Below, in pieces: positions 42,827-54,047 of a DNA stretch of 64,000 nucleotides (position 1 is the stretch's first letter; each line of letters opens with the position of its first letter). The DNA comes from Microbacterium sp. BH-3-3-3 (GTDB lineage: Bacteria; Actinomycetota; Actinomycetes; Actinomycetales; Microbacteriaceae). Under the pieces are notes generated by a model that saw only the letters and a list, made by a program, of their open reading frames with translations, made no database searches and had not been told where the DNA came from. The DNA is taken from contig NZ_CP017674.1 in assembly GCF_001792815.1 (NCBI RefSeq), positions 1,302,001 through 1,366,000 on the forward strand. Reading direction: 5' to 3'. Made by a program: the position numbers and the translations under genes.

Positions 42827-43915
42827 ATGAGTCCGGCTGACGCAGCACCGTCCCCCGTGCCGATGGTCACCGTCGACGCGATGGGCGTCGATGTCCACCT
42901 CCGCGCGACCTCGACCCTGTCGGGCACGTTGCTTTCGCGCGTACGCGATGCATGGAGCGACTGCCACGTGCCTCGCGGCGACGCCGGCCGGCAGCACCGC
43001 ACCCTCGACCTCTCCCCCGACGCGTTCGTCGACATCGAGCGCGGGTTGTCCGATCTCTCCACCCGAGTGACCTTGGAGGCCCTCGACGCGCTCCGCGGCA
43101 CGCGCCTTCTCCTGCATGCCGCCGGGGCGGCCACCGACGACGGACGCACGATCGCGTTGGTCGGACCCTCGGGTCGCGGCAAGACCACGGCATCCCGTCA
43201 TGTCGGAACACACTTCGCCTATGTGAGCGATGAGACGGTGGCGGTCGCCGACGACCTCACCGTCGAGCCGTACCGCAAGCCGCTCTCCGTCATCACCCCC
43301 GGTCGCGCTCATAAGGAGCAGATCGCGCCCAGCATCTTCGGGTTGAAGGATCTGCCGGATGCTCGCCTGCGTCTCACCGCGATCACCCTCATCGACCGTC
43401 AGCCCGATGCGGCAGCGATCGGGCCCTACGCGATCGACACGATCGACGCGATCTGCGAGATGACACCGCAGATCAGCTACCTCCCCGAGTTGCCCACGCC
43501 TTTGCAGTACCTGGCACGCCTGTTCGACGCCATCGGCGCCCCCACCCGGCTGATCTACCGCGACGCCGTGGAGCTCCCCGCTCTGGTGCGCACAATGCTC
43601 GACGAGCCGGGTCATCCGGCCGCCGCCTGGACCGTCCCCCTTCGCGCGGACGATCCGGGACCCTGGCGGGTCGCGCCCTACGACGACGCCATCATCGTCG
43701 CGGGACGCGCGTGCGTGATGCGCAATGGAATGGTCACCGCTCTCGACCAGCGCGGGTGCCTCGTGTGGACGCAGTGTCTGGCCGGGGCGTCGACGGAAGC
43801 GATCGTCGCCACCGCCGTCGCCGAGTTCGGAGAGCCGGAGCAGGGCGAAGCGACTGCGCTCATCGCCGCGACGATCGAGGAACTCCGTGTGCTCGGATTC
43901 ATCGAGGCGGCATGA
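42827..43915 (+). CDS. HprK-like P-loop ATPase fused to a PqqD-like domain
   Basis: The 362-residue product has an N-terminal part of about 90 residues, then an HprK-like P-loop domain with Walker A GPSGRGKTT near residue 112, and the blocks YVSDETVAV, PYRKPLSVI and HKEQIAPS. The last 75 residues match the PqqD (RiPP recognition element) fold: MVTALDQRGCLVWTQCLAGASTEAIVATAVAEF, then IAATIEELRVLGFIE. HprK-type enzymes phosphorylate serine on protein substrates, and stand-alone relatives modify some lasso peptides; PqqD domains bind leader peptides. The fusion suggests a kinase that recruits a peptide substrate through its own leader-binding domain; this is inference. AGGAAGG precedes the ATG. 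The stop overlaps the signal peptidase start (ATGA). Confidence 0.82.
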   Translation: MSPADAAPSPVPMVTVDAMGVDVHLRATSTLSGTLLSRVRDAWSDCHVPRGDAGRQHRTLDLSPDAFVDIERGLSDLSTRVTLEALDALRGTRLLLHAAGAATDDGRTIALVGPSGRGKTTASRHVGTHFAYVSDETVAVADDLTVEPYRKPLSVITPGRAHKEQIAPSIFGLKDLPDARLRLTAITLIDRQPDAAAIGPYAIDTIDAICEMTPQISYLPELPTPLQYLARLFDAIGAPTRLIYRDAVELPALVRTMLDEPGHPAAAWTVPLRADDPGPWRVAPYDDAIIVAGRACVMRNGMVTALDQRGCLVWTQCLAGASTEAIVATAVAEFGEPEQGEATALIAATIEELRVLGFIEAA

Positions 43916-44628
43916 GCGCCGAGTCCCCCGCACCGGCGTCCAGCCGAACCCGCTGGCGCCGCATACGTCGGTCTCCGATCACCCACGTCGTCGCCGCGTT
44001 CCTCGTGCTCGCTCTTACGCAACTCTTCTTCGTCAAGCCCTTTCAGGTGCCGTCGGAATCCATGTCGCCCACTCTCGAGACAGGCGATCGAATCCTGGCC
44101 AATCGCATCGCTCTCGTCGGCAGCGATCCTGCCGCCGGCGACGTCATCGTTTTCTCACGGCCCGCCGCATGGAGAACGGATCTCGCACCTCGGGGAACTC
44201 TGCGGACGGCCGTCGGCTGGGTCGGTGACATCGTCGGTTTCGGTCCGAGTAATCTCGACGCCCTGGTGAAGCGGGTGATCGGTGAGCCGGGTACGTCGGT
44301 GCGGTGCTGCACCGACGACGGGCGTGTGGAGGTCGACGGGGTCGCCCTGGACGAGGGTTACGTTCGCACCGATCTTTCGTTCACCCCCGGGCAGCTCGAC
44401 TGCGACAGCACACCCGCGTCCTCGCGATGCTTCGGCCCGGTCACGGTCCCCGACGACTCGTACCTCGTGATGGGCGACAATCGCGCCAACTCCTCCGATT
44501 CGGTCATCGGATGCCGGGGAGCCCCCGCCGTAGAGGAGTGTGCGCGCTTCGTCCCACGCTCCGATGTGATCGGCGAAGTCGCGCTGATCCTGTGGCCGCC
44601 CGACCGGGCGTTCGCTCCCCTGCGCTGA
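43912..44628 (+). CDS. lepB: Type I signal peptidase (S26)
   Basis: The 238-residue product has one N-terminal membrane helix and the Ser/Lys catalytic dyad: Ser50 in VPSESMSPT and Lys120 in ALVKRVIGEPG. Box E is VMGDNRANSSDS. An extra Cys pair (RCCTD, and later C-x6-C regions) is unusual for signal peptidases and suggests disulfides in the outer domain. It would cut signal peptides at the outer face of the membrane. Because it is coupled to the HprK-like/PqqD gene, it may be dedicated to a particular exported substrate rather than being the housekeeping enzyme; a second, damaged copy lies at 45869. Confidence 0.9.
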   Translation: MSAESPAPASSRTRWRRIRRSPITHVVAAFLVLALTQLFFVKPFQVPSESMSPTLETGDRILANRIALVGSDPAAGDVIVFSRPAAWRTDLAPRGTLRTAVGWVGDIVGFGPSNLDALVKRVIGEPGTSVRCCTDDGRVEVDGVALDEGYVRTDLSFTPGQLDCDSTPASSRCFGPVTVPDDSYLVMGDNRANSSDSVIGCRGAPAVEECARFVPRSDVIGEVALILWPPDRAFAPLR

Positions 44629-44751: not shown

Positions 44752-44967
44752 TCAGGCGTTCCCGATGTTCTTGTCGACGTTCTGGCGGATGTCGTCCACC
44801 TTGGCGTGCTGCTCGGTCGGGACGACCTTCTTGATCGCATCGGCCGCGCCATCGAGGATCTTGTCACTGACCTCTTCGGCTTTCTCTGTCTTGAGGGCCT
44901 CTTCGATCTTGCTTCGGTTCTCATCGAGCAGCTTCTTGCCCTTGTTGATGATGTCGTCCACACCCAT
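44752..44967 (-). CDS. MT0933-like small protein (Rv0909 family)
   Basis: The 71-residue product is helical and highly charged: MGVDDIINKGKKLLDENRSKIEEALKTEK and GAADAIKKVVP, then DDIRQNVDKNIG. It fits the MT0933_antitox family, named from a Mycobacterium antitoxin (Rv0909), although no toxin gene is beside it. Many relatives are small stress or CsbD-like proteins. GAGGGAG precedes the ATG. The gene lies between the intact and the truncated copies of the kinase/signal-peptidase module, close to where the second kinase lost its N-terminus. Confidence 0.7.
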   Translation of the reverse strand: MGVDDIINKGKKLLDENRSKIEEALKTEKAEEVSDKILDGAADAIKKVVPTEQHAKVDDIRQNVDKNIGNA

Positions 44968-45042: not shown

Positions 45043-45872
45043 GTAGCCCTTGACGGAGCACGAGCCACGATGGCAGCGGCCGGGTGGCTGCAGAGGACGG
45101 GCGCACCATCGCGCTCGTCGGTCCCTCCGGGCGAGGGAAGACGACTGCCGCCCGGCGACTCGGGGCGCACTTCGCCTATGTGAGCCATGAGACGGTCGCC
45201 GTCGACGGCGACCTTTCGGTGCAGTCTTACCGCAAACCGCTGTCCGTCATCACCGACGGTCGCGCCCACAAGGAACAGATTGCACCGAGCGACCTCGGAC
45301 TCAGGGAGCTGCCCGGCGCTCCCCTGGTCCTCACCGCACTCACCCTCATCGAGCGACAGTCCGACGCTGCAGCCCCGGGTGCGACCGTCGTCGACACGAT
45401 CGACGCTATCTGCAAGATGACCCCGCAGATCAGCTACTTGCCCGAACTCCCCACCGCGCTGCAGTATCTCGCCCGCCTCTTCGATGCCATCGGGGCGCCG
45501 ACGCTGGTGATCTACCGGGATGCCGTCGAGCTTCCCGCTCTCGTCTCACAGATGTTCGCCTCCCCCGGGCTGCCCGCCCCCTCGTGGACGGTGCCCGCGC
45601 GGTCGGACCGCTCCGGGCCCTGGCGCGCCACGACCTACGACGACGCCATCCTCGTCGGTGGGCGTGCCTGCATTCTTCGCCACGGCGTGGTCACGGCGCT
45701 CGGCCCGCTCGGGCGCCTCGTCTGGACGCAGTGCCTCGCCGGCGCGTCTCCCGACGAGATCGCGGCGGCAGCCGTCGCCGAGTTCGGCGAGCCCGACGAG
45801 GGCGGCGTGGACCGACTCATCGCCGGCGCGCTCGACGACCTGAACACGCACGGGTTGATCGAGGCGCGATGA
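45043..45872 (+). pseudogene. N-terminally truncated, frame-shifted second HprK-like/PqqD gene
   Basis: From the GTG at 45084 the 262-residue frame is a close paralogue of the gene at 42827: GRTIALVGPSGRGKTTAARR, HKEQIAPS, the block TPQISYLPELPT-LQYLARLF and the C-terminal PqqD-like domain are nearly the same. Bases 45043-45084 still match a little more of the first copy (VALDGARAT versus EALDALRGT) but in another frame; one missing base near 45084 would explain it. The first 85 or so residues are absent altogether. The P-loop and PqqD domains are intact, so a shortened product could still be made. Its stop overlaps the next gene start (ATGA), as in the first copy. Confidence 0.72.
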
Positions 45873-46580
45873 GCACCGCTCCCTCCCGCCCGACGCGCTC
45901 GCGCTGGCAGCGGATCCGCCGCTCCCCCCTCACGCATGTGGCGATGGCCTTGATCGCCCTCGCCCTCGTTCAGCTTCTCCTGGTGAAACCGTTCCAAGTG
46001 CCGTCCGAGTCAATGTCACCCACGGTCGAGACCGGTGACCGCATCCTCGCGAATCGGCTCGCGATGAGCGTGTCCGATCCGGTGCGGGGCGACATCATCG
46101 TGTTCCCCCGACCCGACACTTGGAAGACGGATGCCAGGGAAGCAGGACCCTTCAGGGTCGCTGCCGGATGGGTCGGCGACATCGTGGGCTTCGGTCCCAG
46201 CAACCTCGATGCGCTCGTCAAACGCGTGATCGGCGAGCCGGGGACGACGGTGCGGTGCTGCTCGGCAGACGGCCGCGTCGAGGTGGACGGTGCCGCTCTG
46301 GACGAGGGGGATGTGCGCAACGACCCGCCGTTCAGCCCCGGTCAGCTCGACTGCGCGAGCGTCCCGGCGTCTCAACGGTGCTTCGGGTCTGTCACCGTAC
46401 CCGACGGGAGCTATCTGGTGCTGGGCGACAATCGTGCGAACTCCGCCGATTCGGTCGCCGGGATGCCGCGGCATCCCGGCCATCGAGAGCTGCGGGCGCT
46501 TCGTCTCCCGGGCCGACATGATCGGCAGGGTATGGGCGGTCGTCTGGCCGTTTAATCGCGCCTTCGGCCCACTTGGCTGA
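45869..46580 (+). pseudogene. Second type I signal peptidase, frameshifted near the C-terminus
   Basis: The product repeats the first signal peptidase: VPSESMSPT with Ser48, ALVKRVIGEPG with Lys118, and LGDNRANSADS. After residue 196 the frame runs into unrelated sequence and stops at 46555. The true C-terminus (RGIPAIESCGRFVSRADMIGRVW, ending RAFGPLG) continues in the next frame to 46580 and matches the first copy. One extra G in the run 46460-46462 explains the shift; it lies inside a perfect 24-bp palindrome. All catalytic boxes precede the shift, so the altered protein could still be active. A sequencing error is possible. Confidence 0.8.
46457..46480. repeat. 24-bp perfect palindrome at the frameshift
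   Basis: The arms GCCGGGATGCCG and CGGCATCCCGGC are exact complements. The sequence lies within the second signal peptidase gene at the point where the reading frame changes, and carries the GGATGCC heptamer in both arms. Confidence 0.9.
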
Positions 46581-46769: not shown

Positions 46770-47380
46770 TTAGGGCGTGCTCGAGGAGTTGGAGACGGAA
46801 ACCCCGTTGTTGATCGCGGCAGCCGTCACAGTGACGGTGGCGGAAAGGGGGTCATCCTCCGAAACCTCTGCCGGGTCGAAGGTTCCGGTGTAGCTCGCGA
46901 CAGGCGCAAAGATCGACACCTGACTTGGCTGTGACGACGTGCCACTCACCGTGACCGGCTCTCCGGTGAACTCAACGCGACGCCCGGAGGCCGCGACCAG
47001 AGCCACGGTCCACACGGTGCCGCCGGCAGTGATGGTCTCGCCGACCGAGAAGAGGCTCACTCCATCTGCTTTGGTGATCTGTCCGACGGCATTAGGACCC
47101 AGGAGCCGGTATGATGCGCGCAGCGCGCCCGTTGAGTACGAGCCCACCACGTTGCTGAGTTGCACACCGGCGTTCTGGAAGTCACCGGAGAAGGTGCCGG
47201 CAGAGAAGTTGGCGCGGATGTTCCCCCGACAAGAGCCAGGATTTGCGCTGAGGCGGCGCTTGCCGCTGCCAGTGGCGCAGCGACGGCGACGGCGATCACG
47301 GGCGCTGCCCATGCCGCGGTCTTGATCACGGTACGACGGCTGACGGAGCCGGTGACGGAGTCGGACTTCTCGTTGCTCAT
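46770..47380 (-). pseudogene. Secreted protein with Tat-like signal, frameshifted
   Basis: The first frame (from ATG 47380, with AAGGGGGG upstream) encodes a twin-arginine-type signal: SRRTVIKTAAWAAPVIAVAVAAPLAAASAASAQ. Coding then passes to another frame that continues to 46770 (NIRANFSAGTFSG, NVVGSYSTGALRASYRLLG, ending NSSSTP). A one-base change in a run of five G (around 47220-47228) would restore one frame of about 203 residues. The mature part looks like a beta-rich surface protein. Such SRRTVIK proteins are common exported proteins in Microbacterium. It may be a substrate of the neighbouring signal peptidase; that is inference. A sequencing error at the G run is possible. Confidence 0.68.
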
Positions 47381-47537: not shown

Positions 47538-48344
47538 TTACTGAACGGGCAGGCGGCGCACGGCCGACGGAGAGGCGAGCCCCTCGGCGGCGAATGCGCG
47601 GGCGAGGCTCGACCCGTTCGCCAAACCACACGCATGGCCGATCTGGTCGATCGACAGGGCTGCGTAGGCGGGATCCTCGAGTAACGAGACCGCGTGGGCC
47701 ACTCGAGCCCGCCGGATACTGCGGTCCATCGTGGTACCGCGGGACGAAAACTGACGTTGCAAGGTGCGAATCGACGTGTTCAGTTCCGCGGCGACCGACG
47801 CCGCCCTGAGGTCGGGATCGCCTACTCGCGCTGCGATGACCGACAGCGCCGCGGAATAGACGTCCGACACGGCGGGGCCTCCCTGAGACCGCAACGACGA
47901 CACCACCACTCCGACCAACATCTCCTGGAGCAAGCGCTCCATGAAGTACAGCGTGAGTCCGGTGTGACGATCGCCCGAGGTGGCACAGCTCCACGCGAAG
48001 GTGAGAAACGGCCAGAACAATGCGGAATGCACGTCGAGAGGAAGGGGCACCGGCGCGTCGACCCCCACGCCGTGCAGAACCTGCGCGGGAAAGGTGAGCA
48101 CGAGGTGACAGCGCGCCGCGTGCGCCTGGACCGGCGCGGCCGGCGCAATGGTCGCCACGCAGGAACTCGCCGCCCCCACAGGGCCACGAATAGAGGGCGG
48201 TCGACCGAGCGAGACCACGAGGCACGCCTCGTCTTCACCGGCATCCGTAGGAGGCATCGTTAGCTGTGAGCCAGCGATGGCCCGTACTCGAACACTTCCG
48301 AAGATCGCCGCCGGGGGCGAAACGGCGTGCAGCGCACCGACCAC
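47538..48344 (-). CDS. AraC family transcriptional regulator
   Basis: The 268-residue product ends in the double helix-turn-helix of AraC/XylS proteins: DLRAASVAAELNTSIRTLQRQFSSRG for the first and LSIDQIGHACGLANGSSLARAFAAEGLASPSAVRR for the second. The N-terminal 165 residues would form a cupin-like effector domain and resemble the AraC-binding-like type, with few recognisable motifs. The start is a GTG at 48344. The likely targets are unknown; the gene points towards the frameshifted secreted protein gene and away from the DUF4012 gene. The 255 bases on its upstream side, to 48600, show no convincing gene. Confidence 0.85.
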   Translation of the reverse strand: MVGALHAVSPPAAIFGSVRVRAIAGSQLTMPPTDAGEDEACLVVSLGRPPSIRGPVGAASSCVATIAPAAPVQAHAARCHLVLTFPAQVLHGVGVDAPVPLPLDVHSALFWPFLTFAWSCATSGDRHTGLTLYFMERLLQEMLVGVVVSSLRSQGGPAVSDVYSAALSVIAARVGDPDLRAASVAAELNTSIRTLQRQFSSRGTTMDRSIRRARVAHAVSLLEDPAYAALSIDQIGHACGLANGSSLARAFAAEGLASPSAVRRLPVQ

Positions 48345-48599: not shown

Positions 48600-50480
48600 T
48601 CAGCTCGCGAAACCCGCCAGGAACGGATCGCACGACGCGTCGACCGTCACGGGGGTGTCGCTCGCCGTCGGAGTATGACGAAGGTCGAGCGGTCCGAGCG
48701 GTCCGCCCGGAAGCTGCACCGTGTACGAGACCGTGCGCGACTCGTTCTGGCCGAGCGTCACCATTCGACTCTCTCCGGTGTTCCCGTTCTCGTTCCCGCT
48801 CCGCGAGAGCGAGGGGATGTCACCATCGGCGGGATCCATCGCGGTGATCGTGGCACCCGGAGGCGCGAAGAACAGGGTGTCGAGCATCATCGTCGTGCGC
48901 GGCAGGCCGTAGGTGCCGTTGCGCGCACCCAGCGTGTAGGCGTTGGTGATGTCATCCGTGATGCTGTTGCGCAGGTTCATCGAGACGTTGACGGTGCGAT
49001 CCGCGGCGTTGCAGCTCGCGAACACCTCGGTGGCGAGGTGGTACTCGAGCTTGCTGACCGAGAAGTCGTTCAGGTAGATGCCCACCTGCGTCGATGCGGC
49101 GTTGTCCGTACGCAGACCGCCGTCGAGACCGACCTCCGTCACGAGAGCCTGTGCCTGCTCGTCGGTGAACCAGAGGTTGATGCGCTGCTCCTGAGCGCTG
49201 CGCGTGAGCTGGTCGAACATCGCGATGGGGTTCCACTGTCCCCCCGACAGGCGGGAGAACACCGTCGACGACACCGAGGCGAAGAACTCGTCGGACGAGC
49301 GCCCGTTGTCACCCGCGTCGCCGTAACGCTGATAGGCGTCGCTGAGCACGAGCTTGACCGCGTTCTCGGCCGTGATCTGCTCGCCGGTGGGCAGATCGAC
49401 GGGGCCCAGCACCTCGAGCATGTGAGCGAGCACGACGGGGTCGATCGAGATCACGCCATCGAACTGCGAGCCGTCGGTGCGATCCCACAGCGATTCGAAA
49501 AGACGCGCGGTGGTCGGGAAATCGGGCGTGAACGTGAAGTCCTGCGAGTAGCGCGTGAAGGTGTCGGGGTACAGCGCCAGCGTGCTCTCGGGGAGGTCTA
49601 GCGCCGAGCGCCCCGCCTGCCCGGCCGCGTAGAACGCCATCGAGTCCGACTGTTCCTTGAGCTCGATGCGTCCGTTGTCGACGACCATCACGCTCGACGC
49701 CGCGGGGTTTCCACCGGTGGCGCGGATCTCGGCGTTGTTCTGGAACAACACGAGGTACGTCTTGGGTCCGTCGCCGCCCGCCGCAGCCAGAAGGGACGGC
49801 AGGTACTTCTGCACGAGAGTGAGCGACGGTGCCGCCTGGTCGACGATCTGGGCGACCTGATCGAGGGGTTCGGTGACGATCGGGAGCAGATTGGTGCGGT
49901 CGATGCCGTCGGTGACGACCTTGGCGTCGGTGAACGCCGCGGTGATCTCGGGAAGCGCACCCTCGGCCTGGCGGAACGGTTCGAGGTTGATGCCACCGCC
50001 CTCGACCGCGAGCGACGAGAAGTCCGACGCCGACAGCAGGGCGACCGTCGGCGGCAGGGCGCGCCCGGTCAGTTCGCGGGTCATGGCGGTGAGGCTCTGC
50101 ACCGCCTCGGTGTTGTCTTTGACGAGGGGAATCGAGGATGCCAGATCCCACAGCGGGCCGGAGGAATTGGCATCCGCGCGGTTCGTCTGCTCGAGCACTT
50201 CGTTCGAGACCTGATTGAGGCCCGCGATGTCGCGATTGGCGACGATCTGCGGGACGAACGAGAGCTTGGCCTGGGCGCCGAGAAGGTCGGTGCGGACGAC
50301 GCCCGCTTGATGAGCGAAGGCGAGGGCGACCGCGGCGGTCGCGCAGACGGCGAAGCCGAGGGCCCCGAGAGTCCAGCCCGCGATGGCTGCCGCCACGCGT
50401 CCGCGTCCAGAACTCGCCGCTTCGGGCTCCACGTCGACGCGACGCTGACGCCTCGACGGCGTGTCGTGTGCGTCCGTCAT
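48600..50480 (-). CDS. DUF4012 domain protein, 626 aa
   Basis: The product has an N-terminal cytoplasmic stretch, one membrane helix (ALGFAVCATAAVALAFAH) and a large outer region. The DUF4012 core contains KTYLVLFQNNAEIRATGGNPAA, then FDGVISIDPVVLAHMLEVLGPVDLPTGEQITAENAVKLVLSDAYQRYG. It is the second DUF4012 protein of the window (see 21712), here coupled by an ATGA overlap to a repeat-bearing membrane protein. Both sit beside surface polysaccharide genes. The family's biochemical role is unknown; involvement in polymer attachment or assembly is a guess from context. Confidence 0.88.
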   Translation of the reverse strand: MTDAHDTPSRRQRRVDVEPEAASSGRGRVAAAIAGWTLGALGFAVCATAAVALAFAHQAGVVRTDLLGAQAKLSFVPQIVANRDIAGLNQVSNEVLEQTNRADANSSGPLWDLASSIPLVKDNTEAVQSLTAMTRELTGRALPPTVALLSASDFSSLAVEGGGINLEPFRQAEGALPEITAAFTDAKVVTDGIDRTNLLPIVTEPLDQVAQIVDQAAPSLTLVQKYLPSLLAAAGGDGPKTYLVLFQNNAEIRATGGNPAASSVMVVDNGRIELKEQSDSMAFYAAGQAGRSALDLPESTLALYPDTFTRYSQDFTFTPDFPTTARLFESLWDRTDGSQFDGVISIDPVVLAHMLEVLGPVDLPTGEQITAENAVKLVLSDAYQRYGDAGDNGRSSDEFFASVSSTVFSRLSGGQWNPIAMFDQLTRSAQEQRINLWFTDEQAQALVTEVGLDGGLRTDNAASTQVGIYLNDFSVSKLEYHLATEVFASCNAADRTVNVSMNLRNSITDDITNAYTLGARNGTYGLPRTTMMLDTLFFAPPGATITAMDPADGDIPSLSRSGNENGNTGESRMVTLGQNESRTVSYTVQLPGGPLGPLDLRHTPTASDTPVTVDASCDPFLAGFAS

Positions 50481-52017: not shown

Positions 52018-53442
52018 TTGGAACTGCGTGACTATCTCAGAATCCTTCACCGCAACTGGATTCTCATCCTTGCGTTGACGATTCTCGGCGGTGCGGGGGC
52101 GTACGGCTACTCCCTCCTTCAGACCCCGACCTACGAAGCCAACACGCAGCTCTATGTGTCAGTTCGGTCAGACAGTTCAGGCGTGAGCGAGCTGGCGCAG
52201 GGCACCAACTTCGCTCGTCAGGCTGTCGTGAGCTTTGTCGACGTCGTCGACAGTGCCCTCGTGCTCGACCGGGTCATCGACGACCTGAACTTGGATGTCA
52301 CAGCTCAGCAGTTGGCGCAGTCGATCGAAGCGTCGTCCGCAACGAACTCCGTCATCATCTCCATTCGCGTGTCCGATGGAAACGCCGAAACGGCAGCCGC
52401 CATAGCCAATTCAGTCGGGTCCAACTTCGCTGACGTCGTCGTGAATCGCTTGGAGAAGCCGGACGGGGACACTGCGAGTCTTGTCCGGGTCGAGACCATC
52501 GCCCCCGCGCTTGTCCCCACATCTCCGTCGTCGCCGCACATCCCGATCAACATCGGGCTCGGCATTCTCCTCGGTTTGGCCCTCGGCATCGGAGTGGCCG
52601 TGCTGCGGTCCATTCTCGACACCCGTATCCATTCCCTGCACGACATCGAAGCGGCGACCGAAGCACCCGTCCTGGGGGGTATCGCTCTCGATCCCGACGC
52701 CAAGAAGCGACCGCTCATCGTGCACGCGGATCCGCGGAACCCTCGCGCGGAGTCCTTCCGCAGCCTCCGGACGAACCTGCAGTTCGTCGACGTAGACGGC
52801 TCGTCCCGTTCGTTCGTCGTTTCCAGCGCCGGCCCCGGCGAAGGGAAGTCCACCACAACGGCGAACCTCGCCATCGCGCTCGCGGAAACCGGAGCGCGAG
52901 TGGCCCTCGTGGACGGCGACCTCAGGCTCCCGCGCGTGGCGGATTACATGGGCGTCGAAGGAGGGGTCGGTCTCACTGATGTGCTCATCGGGCGGGCCGA
53001 ACTGGTGGACGTACTGCAGCAATGGGGAACGGGAAAGCTCTTCGTGCTCCCCTCGGGTCGGACACCCCCCAACCCGTCCGAGTTGCTCGGCAGCCAGGCC
53101 ATGCAACGGACGCTGGAGGCTCTCGCCGAGGCATTCGACTACGTCCTCGTCGATGCTCCGCCCCTGCTGCTGGTGACTGACGCCGCGGTCATTTCGCGCT
53201 TCACCAGCGGCGTCCTCATGGTCGCGGCGTCCGGAACGACGAAGAAGCCTCAGCTCACCGCCGCGGTCGAGAAGCTGGGTGCCATCGGCAGCCGTCTCTT
53301 CGGAGTCATCGTCACTATGCTCCCCGCCAAGGGACCCGACAGCTACGGATACGGCGCATATTCCTACAGCGCCGCGCAGGACGAAGTGAAGAGCTCGGCT
53401 TCCGGCGACCGTCGGTCTCGGAGACGCGAGGACAGCCGATGA
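52018..53442 (+). CDS. Wzz-type chain-length protein fused to a BY-family tyrosine kinase
   Basis: The 474-residue product joins a Wzz domain (two helices, WILILALTILGGAGAYGYSLLQ and PINIGLGILLGLALGIGVAVL, with an outer loop) to a cytoplasmic kinase domain. Walker A is SAGPGEGKSTTT, Walker A' is VALVDGDLRLP and Walker B is YVLVDAPP. A tyrosine cluster (SYGYGAYSY) near the C-terminus is the usual autophosphorylation site. Such proteins control length and export of capsular or exopolysaccharide. The start is a TTG at 52018; GAGG lies close upstream and the first helix begins at once. Its stop overlaps the phosphatase gene (ATGA), pairing kinase and phosphatase. Confidence 0.93.
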   Translation: MELRDYLRILHRNWILILALTILGGAGAYGYSLLQTPTYEANTQLYVSVRSDSSGVSELAQGTNFARQAVVSFVDVVDSALVLDRVIDDLNLDVTAQQLAQSIEASSATNSVIISIRVSDGNAETAAAIANSVGSNFADVVVNRLEKPDGDTASLVRVETIAPALVPTSPSSPHIPINIGLGILLGLALGIGVAVLRSILDTRIHSLHDIEAATEAPVLGGIALDPDAKKRPLIVHADPRNPRAESFRSLRTNLQFVDVDGSSRSFVVSSAGPGEGKSTTTANLAIALAETGARVALVDGDLRLPRVADYMGVEGGVGLTDVLIGRAELVDVLQQWGTGKLFVLPSGRTPPNPSELLGSQAMQRTLEALAEAFDYVLVDAPPLLLVTDAAVISRFTSGVLMVAASGTTKKPQLTAAVEKLGAIGSRLFGVIVTMLPAKGPDSYGYGAYSYSAAQDEVKSSASGDRRSRRREDSR

Positions 53443-54047
53443 GCTTCACAATCCTCAGCGTCTGCACCGGAAACGTCTGCCGATCACCCGTCGCCGAATT
53501 CGCTTTGGCCGCGCTCCTCGCCGACGAGGGAGGCGTCAGCGTAGAGAGCGCGGGAACCGGGGCCCTGACCGGGGAATCCGTTCCGGAACCCGGTCAGCGG
53601 ATAGCGATGGAGTATGACGTCGACGCGTCACACCACACGGCCAGACAGGTGTCAGCTCCCCTGATCCGCTCTGCCGATCTGATTCTCGGAATGGCGCGAG
53701 AACACCGTCGATATGCTGCGGAAACGCTCCCCGCGGCGATGCGACGCAGCTTCACCCTGCGGGAACTGGCGCGAATCGCAGAGGCAGCCCACTCCGATCT
53801 TCCTGCTTACGTCCGTGGATCGGGTGCGACGACGGCGGATGACGGAATGCGCGCAGCGGTGGCTTTCGCCGCCTCCCTCCGCGGAACGATCGCCCCGCCT
53901 TCGGACGCCAGTGAATTCGATGTCATCGATCCGTACCGCCGATCTGACGAAACCTACAGAACGTCCTTCGGTCAGCTGGTCCCGGCCGCGCGGAGCGTTG
54001 CGGCGTACCTACGCGCCGGGGCGCGGCTCGCCGAAGCAAACCAATGA
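53439..54047 (+). CDS. Low-molecular-weight protein tyrosine phosphatase
   Basis: The 202-residue product has the phosphatase loop CTGNVCRS near residue 9 and the acid motif DPYRR near residue 167. It should dephosphorylate the tyrosine cluster of the kinase encoded just upstream, completing the phosphorylation cycle that drives polysaccharide export. It is about 50 residues longer than typical members, with an insert in the second half. The ATG at 53439 overlaps the kinase stop. The following 250 bases to gmd have no gene and should hold a promoter. Confidence 0.9.
   Translation: MSFTILSVCTGNVCRSPVAEFALAALLADEGGVSVESAGTGALTGESVPEPGQRIAMEYDVDASHHTARQVSAPLIRSADLILGMAREHRRYAAETLPAAMRRSFTLRELARIAEAAHSDLPAYVRGSGATTADDGMRAAVAFAASLRGTIAPPSDASEFDVIDPYRRSDETYRTSFGQLVPAARSVAAYLRAGARLAEANQ

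Follow-up and report, generated by a model that had tools for sequence, protein, structure and literature searches.

An HprK-like/RRE fusion protein that co-occurs with a class of Tat signals in Microbacterium and related actinobacteria

In the window, a stretch of 64,000 nucleotides from Microbacterium sp. BH-3-3-3 (contig NZ_CP017674.1, positions 1,302,001 to 1,366,000), we found a fusion of an HprK-like and a PqqD (RRE) domain, here called FUS. Across genomes, this protein family tracks a class of Tat signals (Tat-AAW), and on the comparative evidence laid out below a functional link between the two appears very likely. We lean, with some reserve, towards the view that FUS is the cytoplasmic part of a system, linked to Tat and encoded with exopolysaccharide clusters, that sorts or modifies secreted proteins, perhaps those of the matrix. 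The pattern suggests that some actinobacteria mark proteins ahead of export in a manner not described so far.

Domains of the fusion protein and its gene neighbourhood

The N-terminal part of FUS has the HPr kinase/PEPCK fold and keeps a set of motifs, namely the P-loop GxSGxGK[ST], a His upstream of it and an acidic pair downstream. Among 42 members compared, S115 of the P-loop was found in 41 and G116, G118 and K119 in all 42, while His97 was present in all 41 members with a letter at that position, Asp135 in 41 of 42 and Glu136 in 42 of 42. We take the His before the P-loop to be the general base; the roles of P-loop, His and acidic pair are assumed here from what is known of phosphotransferases. 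Membership of the ABC or AAA ATPases was rejected, since the sequence matches were confined to the P-loop and the fold is that of PEPCK/HprK. The TIGR04352 profile (HprK_rel_A) matched 34 of the 42 members at E<=0.001 (best 1.3e-7), and the window FUS scored 17.7 bits against a curated cut-off of 200 bits.

The sequence-only reading of the window had called the C-terminal domain PqqD-like, and the profile and structure checks agree: it is a PqqD/RRE domain of the lasso-B1 type. Three strands and three helices make up a winged-helix fold, and a domain profile search matched it to TbiB1 at E=2.2e-5, with unrelated chains interspersed among the PqqD-type matches of that search at E 0.02-0.04. PF05402 matched 32 of 42 members at E<=0.1 and gave two values for the window FUS, 20.4 and 23.9 bits, at a cut-off of 23.4; TIGR04353 (PqqD_rel_X) matched five of 42 at E<=0.001. 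The arrangement described by that reading, a fusion gene overlapping a type I signal peptidase (S26) gene by ATGA, is present as well (Table 1). The S26 product matches the family profile and has the Ser/Lys pair, with Ser50 and Lys120 presumably being the catalytic residues. The own genome (3.5 Mb, one contig) holds five FUS genes in total; searched with the window S26, it gave one further match at around 15 kb, with 40% identity.

Table 1. Features of the window (positions count from its first letter)
Feature	Position	Strand	Remarks
FUS, HprK-like/PqqD (RRE) fusion protein	42827..43915	+	362 aa
FUS, kinase-fold part	42827-43669	+	about residues 1-281
FUS, RRE part	43670-43912	+	about residues 282-362
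Type I signal peptidase S26	43912..44628	+	238 aa; ATGA overlap with FUS
FUS2, second FUS copy	45084..45872	+	about 100 residues missing at the N-terminus, the His97 region among them; His replaces Asp135
S26-2, second S26 copy	45869..46555	+	family frame lost near residue 200
Tat-signal protein, AAWxxPxI signal	46770..47380	-	frameshifted: 47380-47057 and 47312-46770
AraC-like regulator	47538..48344	-	clusters with regulators adjoining Tat genes elsewhere; relative scores HTH_18
Presumed DUF4012-like protein, exopolysaccharide-type cluster	48600..50480	-	
Wzz/BY-kinase (CpsD-like) protein, exopolysaccharide-type cluster marker	52018..53442	+	
Low-molecular-weight protein tyrosine phosphatase (LMW-PTP)	53439..54047	+	assigned partly from a relative

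FUS and FUS2 are sisters in the FUS tree (FastTree support 1.0) and therefore reflect a lineage-specific tandem duplication. The second FUS/S26 copy (45084-46574) has probably decayed; the C-terminal match of S26-2 continues in another frame at 46461-46574. A small charged ORF of 71 aa (44752-44967, minus strand), by eye resembling small stress or antitoxin proteins, lies between the two copies. The window row also contains sugar genes, and the exopolysaccharide-type cluster adjoins ribosomal protein genes. As to a precursor, of which the sequence-only reading saw none nearby, a candidate does exist 3 kb from FUS, although the frameshifted gene encodes a Tat-signal protein and not a short peptide. 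It is the sole such gene in the window (pattern match at C1:1349301-1349338), and its product belongs to the candidate substrate class.

The Tat-AAW signal class and its distribution

The consensus of the Tat-AAW signals is roughly RRTxxKGAAWSxPVIAxAxAxPxAAA|S. Whole genomes were searched at the DNA level with the pattern RR-x-h-h-x-x-A-A-W-[STA]-x-P, and the 86 Tat ORFs extracted yielded 85 unique signals. RR, AAW and P are set by the pattern itself, which also restricts positions 4, 5 and 11, so that only the remaining positions count as free evidence. At these, Thr follows RR in 77% of the signals, with Gly7 in 82%, Val14 in 84% and Pro22 in 96%, and an aliphatic residue [VILM] occupies position 15, five residues after W, in 85 of 85. 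The signals end in Ala24-26 (78-91%) and Ser27 (85%; Ser or Thr in 92%), the last at +1 of the cleavage site. By an AxA|[STQ]-type rule, 74 signals had a scorable site and 11 of the 85 did not; W stood at -17 in 67 of the 74, which puts W, P and the aliphatic residue at -17, -14 and -12. Judged by sequence, all 85 have the features of Tat signals (RR, short n-region, hydrophobic stretch), with the AxA site in 74.

The motif WxxPx[VILM] was also found in 23 of 23 members of a BLAST cluster of Tat proteins built without the pattern. A looser Tat-like rule applied to called genes collected 104 N-termini, 74 of them with WxxPx[VILM]; evident membrane proteins and variant signals were among the other 30. 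The mature parts of the Tat-AAW proteins vary in size and sequence, and the candidate substrates range from about 150 to over 500 aa. Five Tat-AAW proteins searched at E<=0.01 gave no Pfam or NCBIfam match, and one weak Ig match was obtained when three Tat proteins from Demequina-type loci were compared with Pfam at E<=0.05.

The co-occurrence of FUS and signal was evident at three taxonomic levels. Within the genus (149 genomes), 41 genomes had both, 13 FUS only, one the signal only and 94 neither (p=4.8e-24; 42 genomes with the signal and 54 with FUS at >80 bits), the lone signal-only genome being 83% complete. The corresponding counts for the family (398 genomes, 85 genera) were 40, 11, 2 and 345 (Fisher p=2.4e-42; FUS in 51 and signal in 42 genomes). 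Kinship among genomes was partly controlled in these statistics by testing within the 19 genera in which FUS or signal was present, which gave a Cochran-Mantel-Haenszel p of 1.1e-14 and an observed overlap that was reached by 0 of 20000 permutations. For the order (297 genomes) we counted 29, 29, 7 and 232 (p=8e-18), or 26, 26, 7 and 215 after removal of the own family (p=5.7e-16), and genus g94, outside the own family, contributed 10 genomes with both, one with each alone and 10 with neither. The FUS thresholds were >80 bits in the genus (reducing 77 to 54 genomes), >100 bits in the family (57 to 51) and >=80 bits in the order (62 to 58), and the genomes dropped before counting had weak, mostly P-loop-only matches. 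A control with the reversed pattern gave single matches in 3 of 149, 7 of 398 and 5 of 297 genomes, and a few of the signal matches, some signal-only ones included, will therefore be due to chance.

Hitchhiking was rejected as the full explanation of this pattern. For 50 signal loci (the contig-1 matches of 14 genomes), the distance to FUS was within 10 kb in 12, 10-100 kb in 9 and >100 kb in 29, and linkage alone is therefore not the cause; counted from the FUS side, a strict Tat-AAW signal lay within 10 kb of 43 of 102 FUS genes. Exopolysaccharide content was rejected in the same role, because its marker, the BY-kinase, is present in 125 of the 149 genus genomes and predicts the signal poorly (p=3e-4, with 4 genomes assigned by elimination). 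An NTP_transf_5 protein was found in 49 of the 149 at E<=0.001 (34 over cut-off). FUS was present in 44 of these 49, corresponding to 44 of the 54 FUS genomes of the genus, and within FUS-positive genomes NTP_transf_5 added nothing to signal prediction (p=0.69).

In an independent family, kinase, RRE and Tat genes stand in one row. These Demequina-type loci (L199-L202 and L102, the latter from Demequina activiva) have PqqD, BY-kinase, kinase and PqqD genes on the same strand, followed by Tat genes, so that kinase and RRE are here separate proteins. The first PqqD gene adjoins NTP_transf_5 in L199-L201, and in L102 and L203, which share a contig, sugar genes and one opposite-strand gene intervene between it and the BY-kinase gene. 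A script counted 5, 6, 5 and 7 Tat genes in L199, L200, L201 and L202, near-miss signals included, the last one of L200 and of L202 lying a few kb further along; L102 has at least four, two of which the script's charge filter had dropped. The kinase of L199 (L199:8024-9418), encoded directly 3' of the BY-kinase gene, starts with an LMW-PTP-like domain (PF01451, 27.6 bits). By eye, the position of the catalytic Cys in this domain is taken by another residue; relatives occur in L202 and L102.

A strict signal was lacking in 13 of the 54 FUS genomes of the genus, 11 of the 51 of the family and 29 of the 58 of the order. Near-miss signals were present in the fetched loci of at least five of the 13 in the genus (G044 in L054, G068 in L043, G133 in L039, G129 in L089 and G112 in L072), that of L072 reading IAVPAI instead of WxxPxI. 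Two FUS paralogues of the own genome (L050 and L071, at about 865 kb and 2344 kb) lie near Tat-like proteins with the variant signals LIAVPAV and GWSVPLA, which suggests substrates specific to each paralogue. An order-level subgroup of another family (f18, L209-L215) has FUS outside exopolysaccharide-type clusters, and no Tat-AAW neighbours were found at its mapped loci; the FUS family is therefore wider than the Tat-AAW system. A 286-aa gene (cluster c172) lies near FUS in L209, L210, L211 and L215. Another recurring row consists of NTP_transf_5, a short PqqD and a MauE protein with, by eye, a thioredoxin-like tail (L081, L086, L088, L091 and L093), and may serve further tailoring or disulfide chemistry.

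The signal peptidase, a proposed mechanism and its rivals

The pairing of FUS and S26 is conserved in part. The same ATGA overlap was seen in four close orthologue loci (L077-L080, 55-62% identity), and S26 follows FUS on the same strand with a gap of up to 60 nt in L181, L187 and L192. By called starts, the gaps are about 100 nt in L188 and L198 and 137 nt in L206, where AraC, Tat, FUS and S26 form one same-strand row. Outside the own genus, this order was seen in four genera, three of the same family and one of a different family. It is not universal: the 60-nt rule holds for 9 of 102 FUS genes (99 loci; both window copies counted), and S26 was absent from the mapped stretches of the Demequina-type loci. 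In more distant relatives within the genus, S26, when present, is mostly a few kb off on the opposite strand in the same type of cluster.

Among 59 genus loci, which represent strong FUS matches rather than a random sample, S26 occurred within about 9.5 kb in 22 and was missing from 37. It accompanied FUS in 14 of 19 loci with a Tat gene against 8 of 40 others (p=1.2e-4), and was also associated with LMW-PTP, AraC and MauE genes. S26 might also be just an extra signal peptidase of the common sort, without any particular relation to FUS or to Tat-AAW proteins, in line with its normal profile and the 37 loci that do without it. Its association with Tat genes and its same-strand position 3' of FUS in several genera speak against this, and we consider it rather unlikely; a special role of the window S26 is reasonably probable. 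The genome comparison thus points to S26 as an accessory and to the Tat-signal protein class as the tight partner of FUS. The earlier proposal that a leader is recognised, ATP used and the substrate cut at the membrane fits the data in outline, with the peptidase reduced to an optional part.

We propose the following order of events. The RRE of FUS would bind the Tat signal as a leader, a step that we hold to be likely from domain type and signal register. The tethered HprK-like domain would phosphorylate the precursor before export, for which the balance is only a little better than even. As phosphosite, our best guess is either the residue at +1 of the cleavage site (Ser/Thr in 92%) or the Thr that follows RR (77%), and the +1 Ser could also simply suit the signal peptidase. 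Where NTP_transf_5 is encoded as well, the phosphate may further receive a sugar. Tat would then export the precursor, and an S26 peptidase would remove the leader, a dedicated one where linked and otherwise the housekeeping enzyme. More generally, and here we are tentative, an actinobacterial Tat signal class may double as a RiPP leader: the RRE-kinase would read it first and phosphorylate a full-size protein (maybe glycosylated with NTP_transf_5) before Tat and S26 act.

A different role for FUS would be to regulate the exopolysaccharide machine together with the BY-kinase and the LMW phosphatase, the Tat proteins being co-members of the same programme. The three genes form one same-strand row in L185, L186 and L189, FUS adjoins the BY-kinase gene in many genus loci, and the phosphatase-like domain is fused to the kinase in Demequina-type loci. 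We nevertheless judge such a role improbable: the BY-kinase is widespread in the genus whereas FUS tracks the Tat signal, more than half of the signal loci lie far from FUS (29 of 50), and such a role would account for neither the RRE domain nor the register that the signal shares with lasso leaders. Less probable still is that FUS acts as a proofreading-type chaperone of the Tat signal, its kinase fold releasing or gating the precursor without modifying it. Tat-specific signal-binding chaperones such as TorD and DmsD are known, and the same co-occurrence and motifs would be expected of one; however, FUS keeps His97, P-loop, Asp135 and Glu136 as in a phosphotransferase, and it co-occurs with NTP_transf_5, a lasso partner of such kinases, in 44 of the 49 genomes that have the latter. 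A short precursor of the classical RiPP kind that escaped notice here would suit the combination of RRE, kinase and nucleotidyltransferase, the set that tailors phosphorylated lasso peptides in the part of PMC8498205 considered here, but is very unlikely given that the genome gave no match to lasso B2 or Asn synthase and that the Tat-AAW proteins carry the leader-like motif.

The proposed phosphorylation and export route, if true, would amount to a system assembled from tailoring parts of the lasso type, in which a leader guides the modification and export of proteins, and it might tie secreted proteins to exopolysaccharide. RRE-guided tailoring would then extend beyond short natural-product peptides to exported proteins, and the Tat signal would hold a second code, read prior to export. 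It gives the HprK/PqqD proteins of exopolysaccharide-type clusters a testable role, with likely substrates that can be found by a searchable signal.

Comparison with known systems

The phosphorylated lasso pathway (K, an HprK homologue; B1, a PqqD-type RRE; and N) shares with FUS the HprK-type kinase and the B1-type RRE, and an NTP_transf_5 protein is common to most FUS genomes of the genus. Lasso leaders carry Tyr(-17), Pro(-14) and Leu(-12), which are recognised by B1 RREs, and the kinase BsfK phosphorylates core Ser3 of a lasso precursor in a reaction accelerated by the RRE, as described in the part of PMC10368454 considered here. Tat-AAW signals resemble these leaders in having aromatic-x-x-P-x-aliphatic at -17/-14/-12. 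In the same excerpt, single Ala substitutions at Tyr(-17) or Leu(-12) left phosphorylation unaffected, and the motif therefore need not be essential even there. For pseudomycoidin, the excerpt of PMC8498205 describes a nucleotidyltransferase by which the phosphate gains one or two hexoses. Unlike in the lasso pathway, kinase and RRE are fused in FUS (split in Demequina-type loci), the candidate substrates are Tat-signal proteins, and the leader would be cut off by an S26 peptidase. Membership of the lasso pathway itself was rejected, since the own genome gave no match at E<=0.001 to lasso B2 (PF13471) or to the cyclase family, Asn synthase (PF00733).

The HPr-rel-A system of NCBIfam (TIGR04352 kinase and TIGR04353 PqqD_rel_X) likewise pairs an HprK-related kinase with a PqqD partner, but the window FUS is far below the 200-bit cut-off, is a fusion and has putative Tat substrates. 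We take the nucleotidyltransferase of pseudomycoidin to be of the PF14907 family. Our literature searches found nothing linking PqqD with HprK or with HPr kinase plus signal peptidase, nothing linking exosortase with HPr kinase, and nothing on PF14907; PqqD and twin-arginine came up together in three papers, each with a single mention of PqqD. A dedicated signal peptidase within a matrix gene cluster has a counterpart in SipW-TasA of Bacillus, which has neither RRE nor kinase and acts on other substrates. By analogy, the closest precedent for a cluster enzyme that tracks a sorting signal is the PEP-CTERM/exosortase (EpsH) system, in which, as far as the part of PMC1569441 considered here goes, an exopolysaccharide-cluster enzyme tracks a short, conserved sorting signal on otherwise diverse proteins from genome to genome; the FUS system differs in having a Tat signal at the N-terminus and, as its enzyme, a predicted cytoplasmic kinase/RRE protein instead of a membrane transpeptidase-like one.
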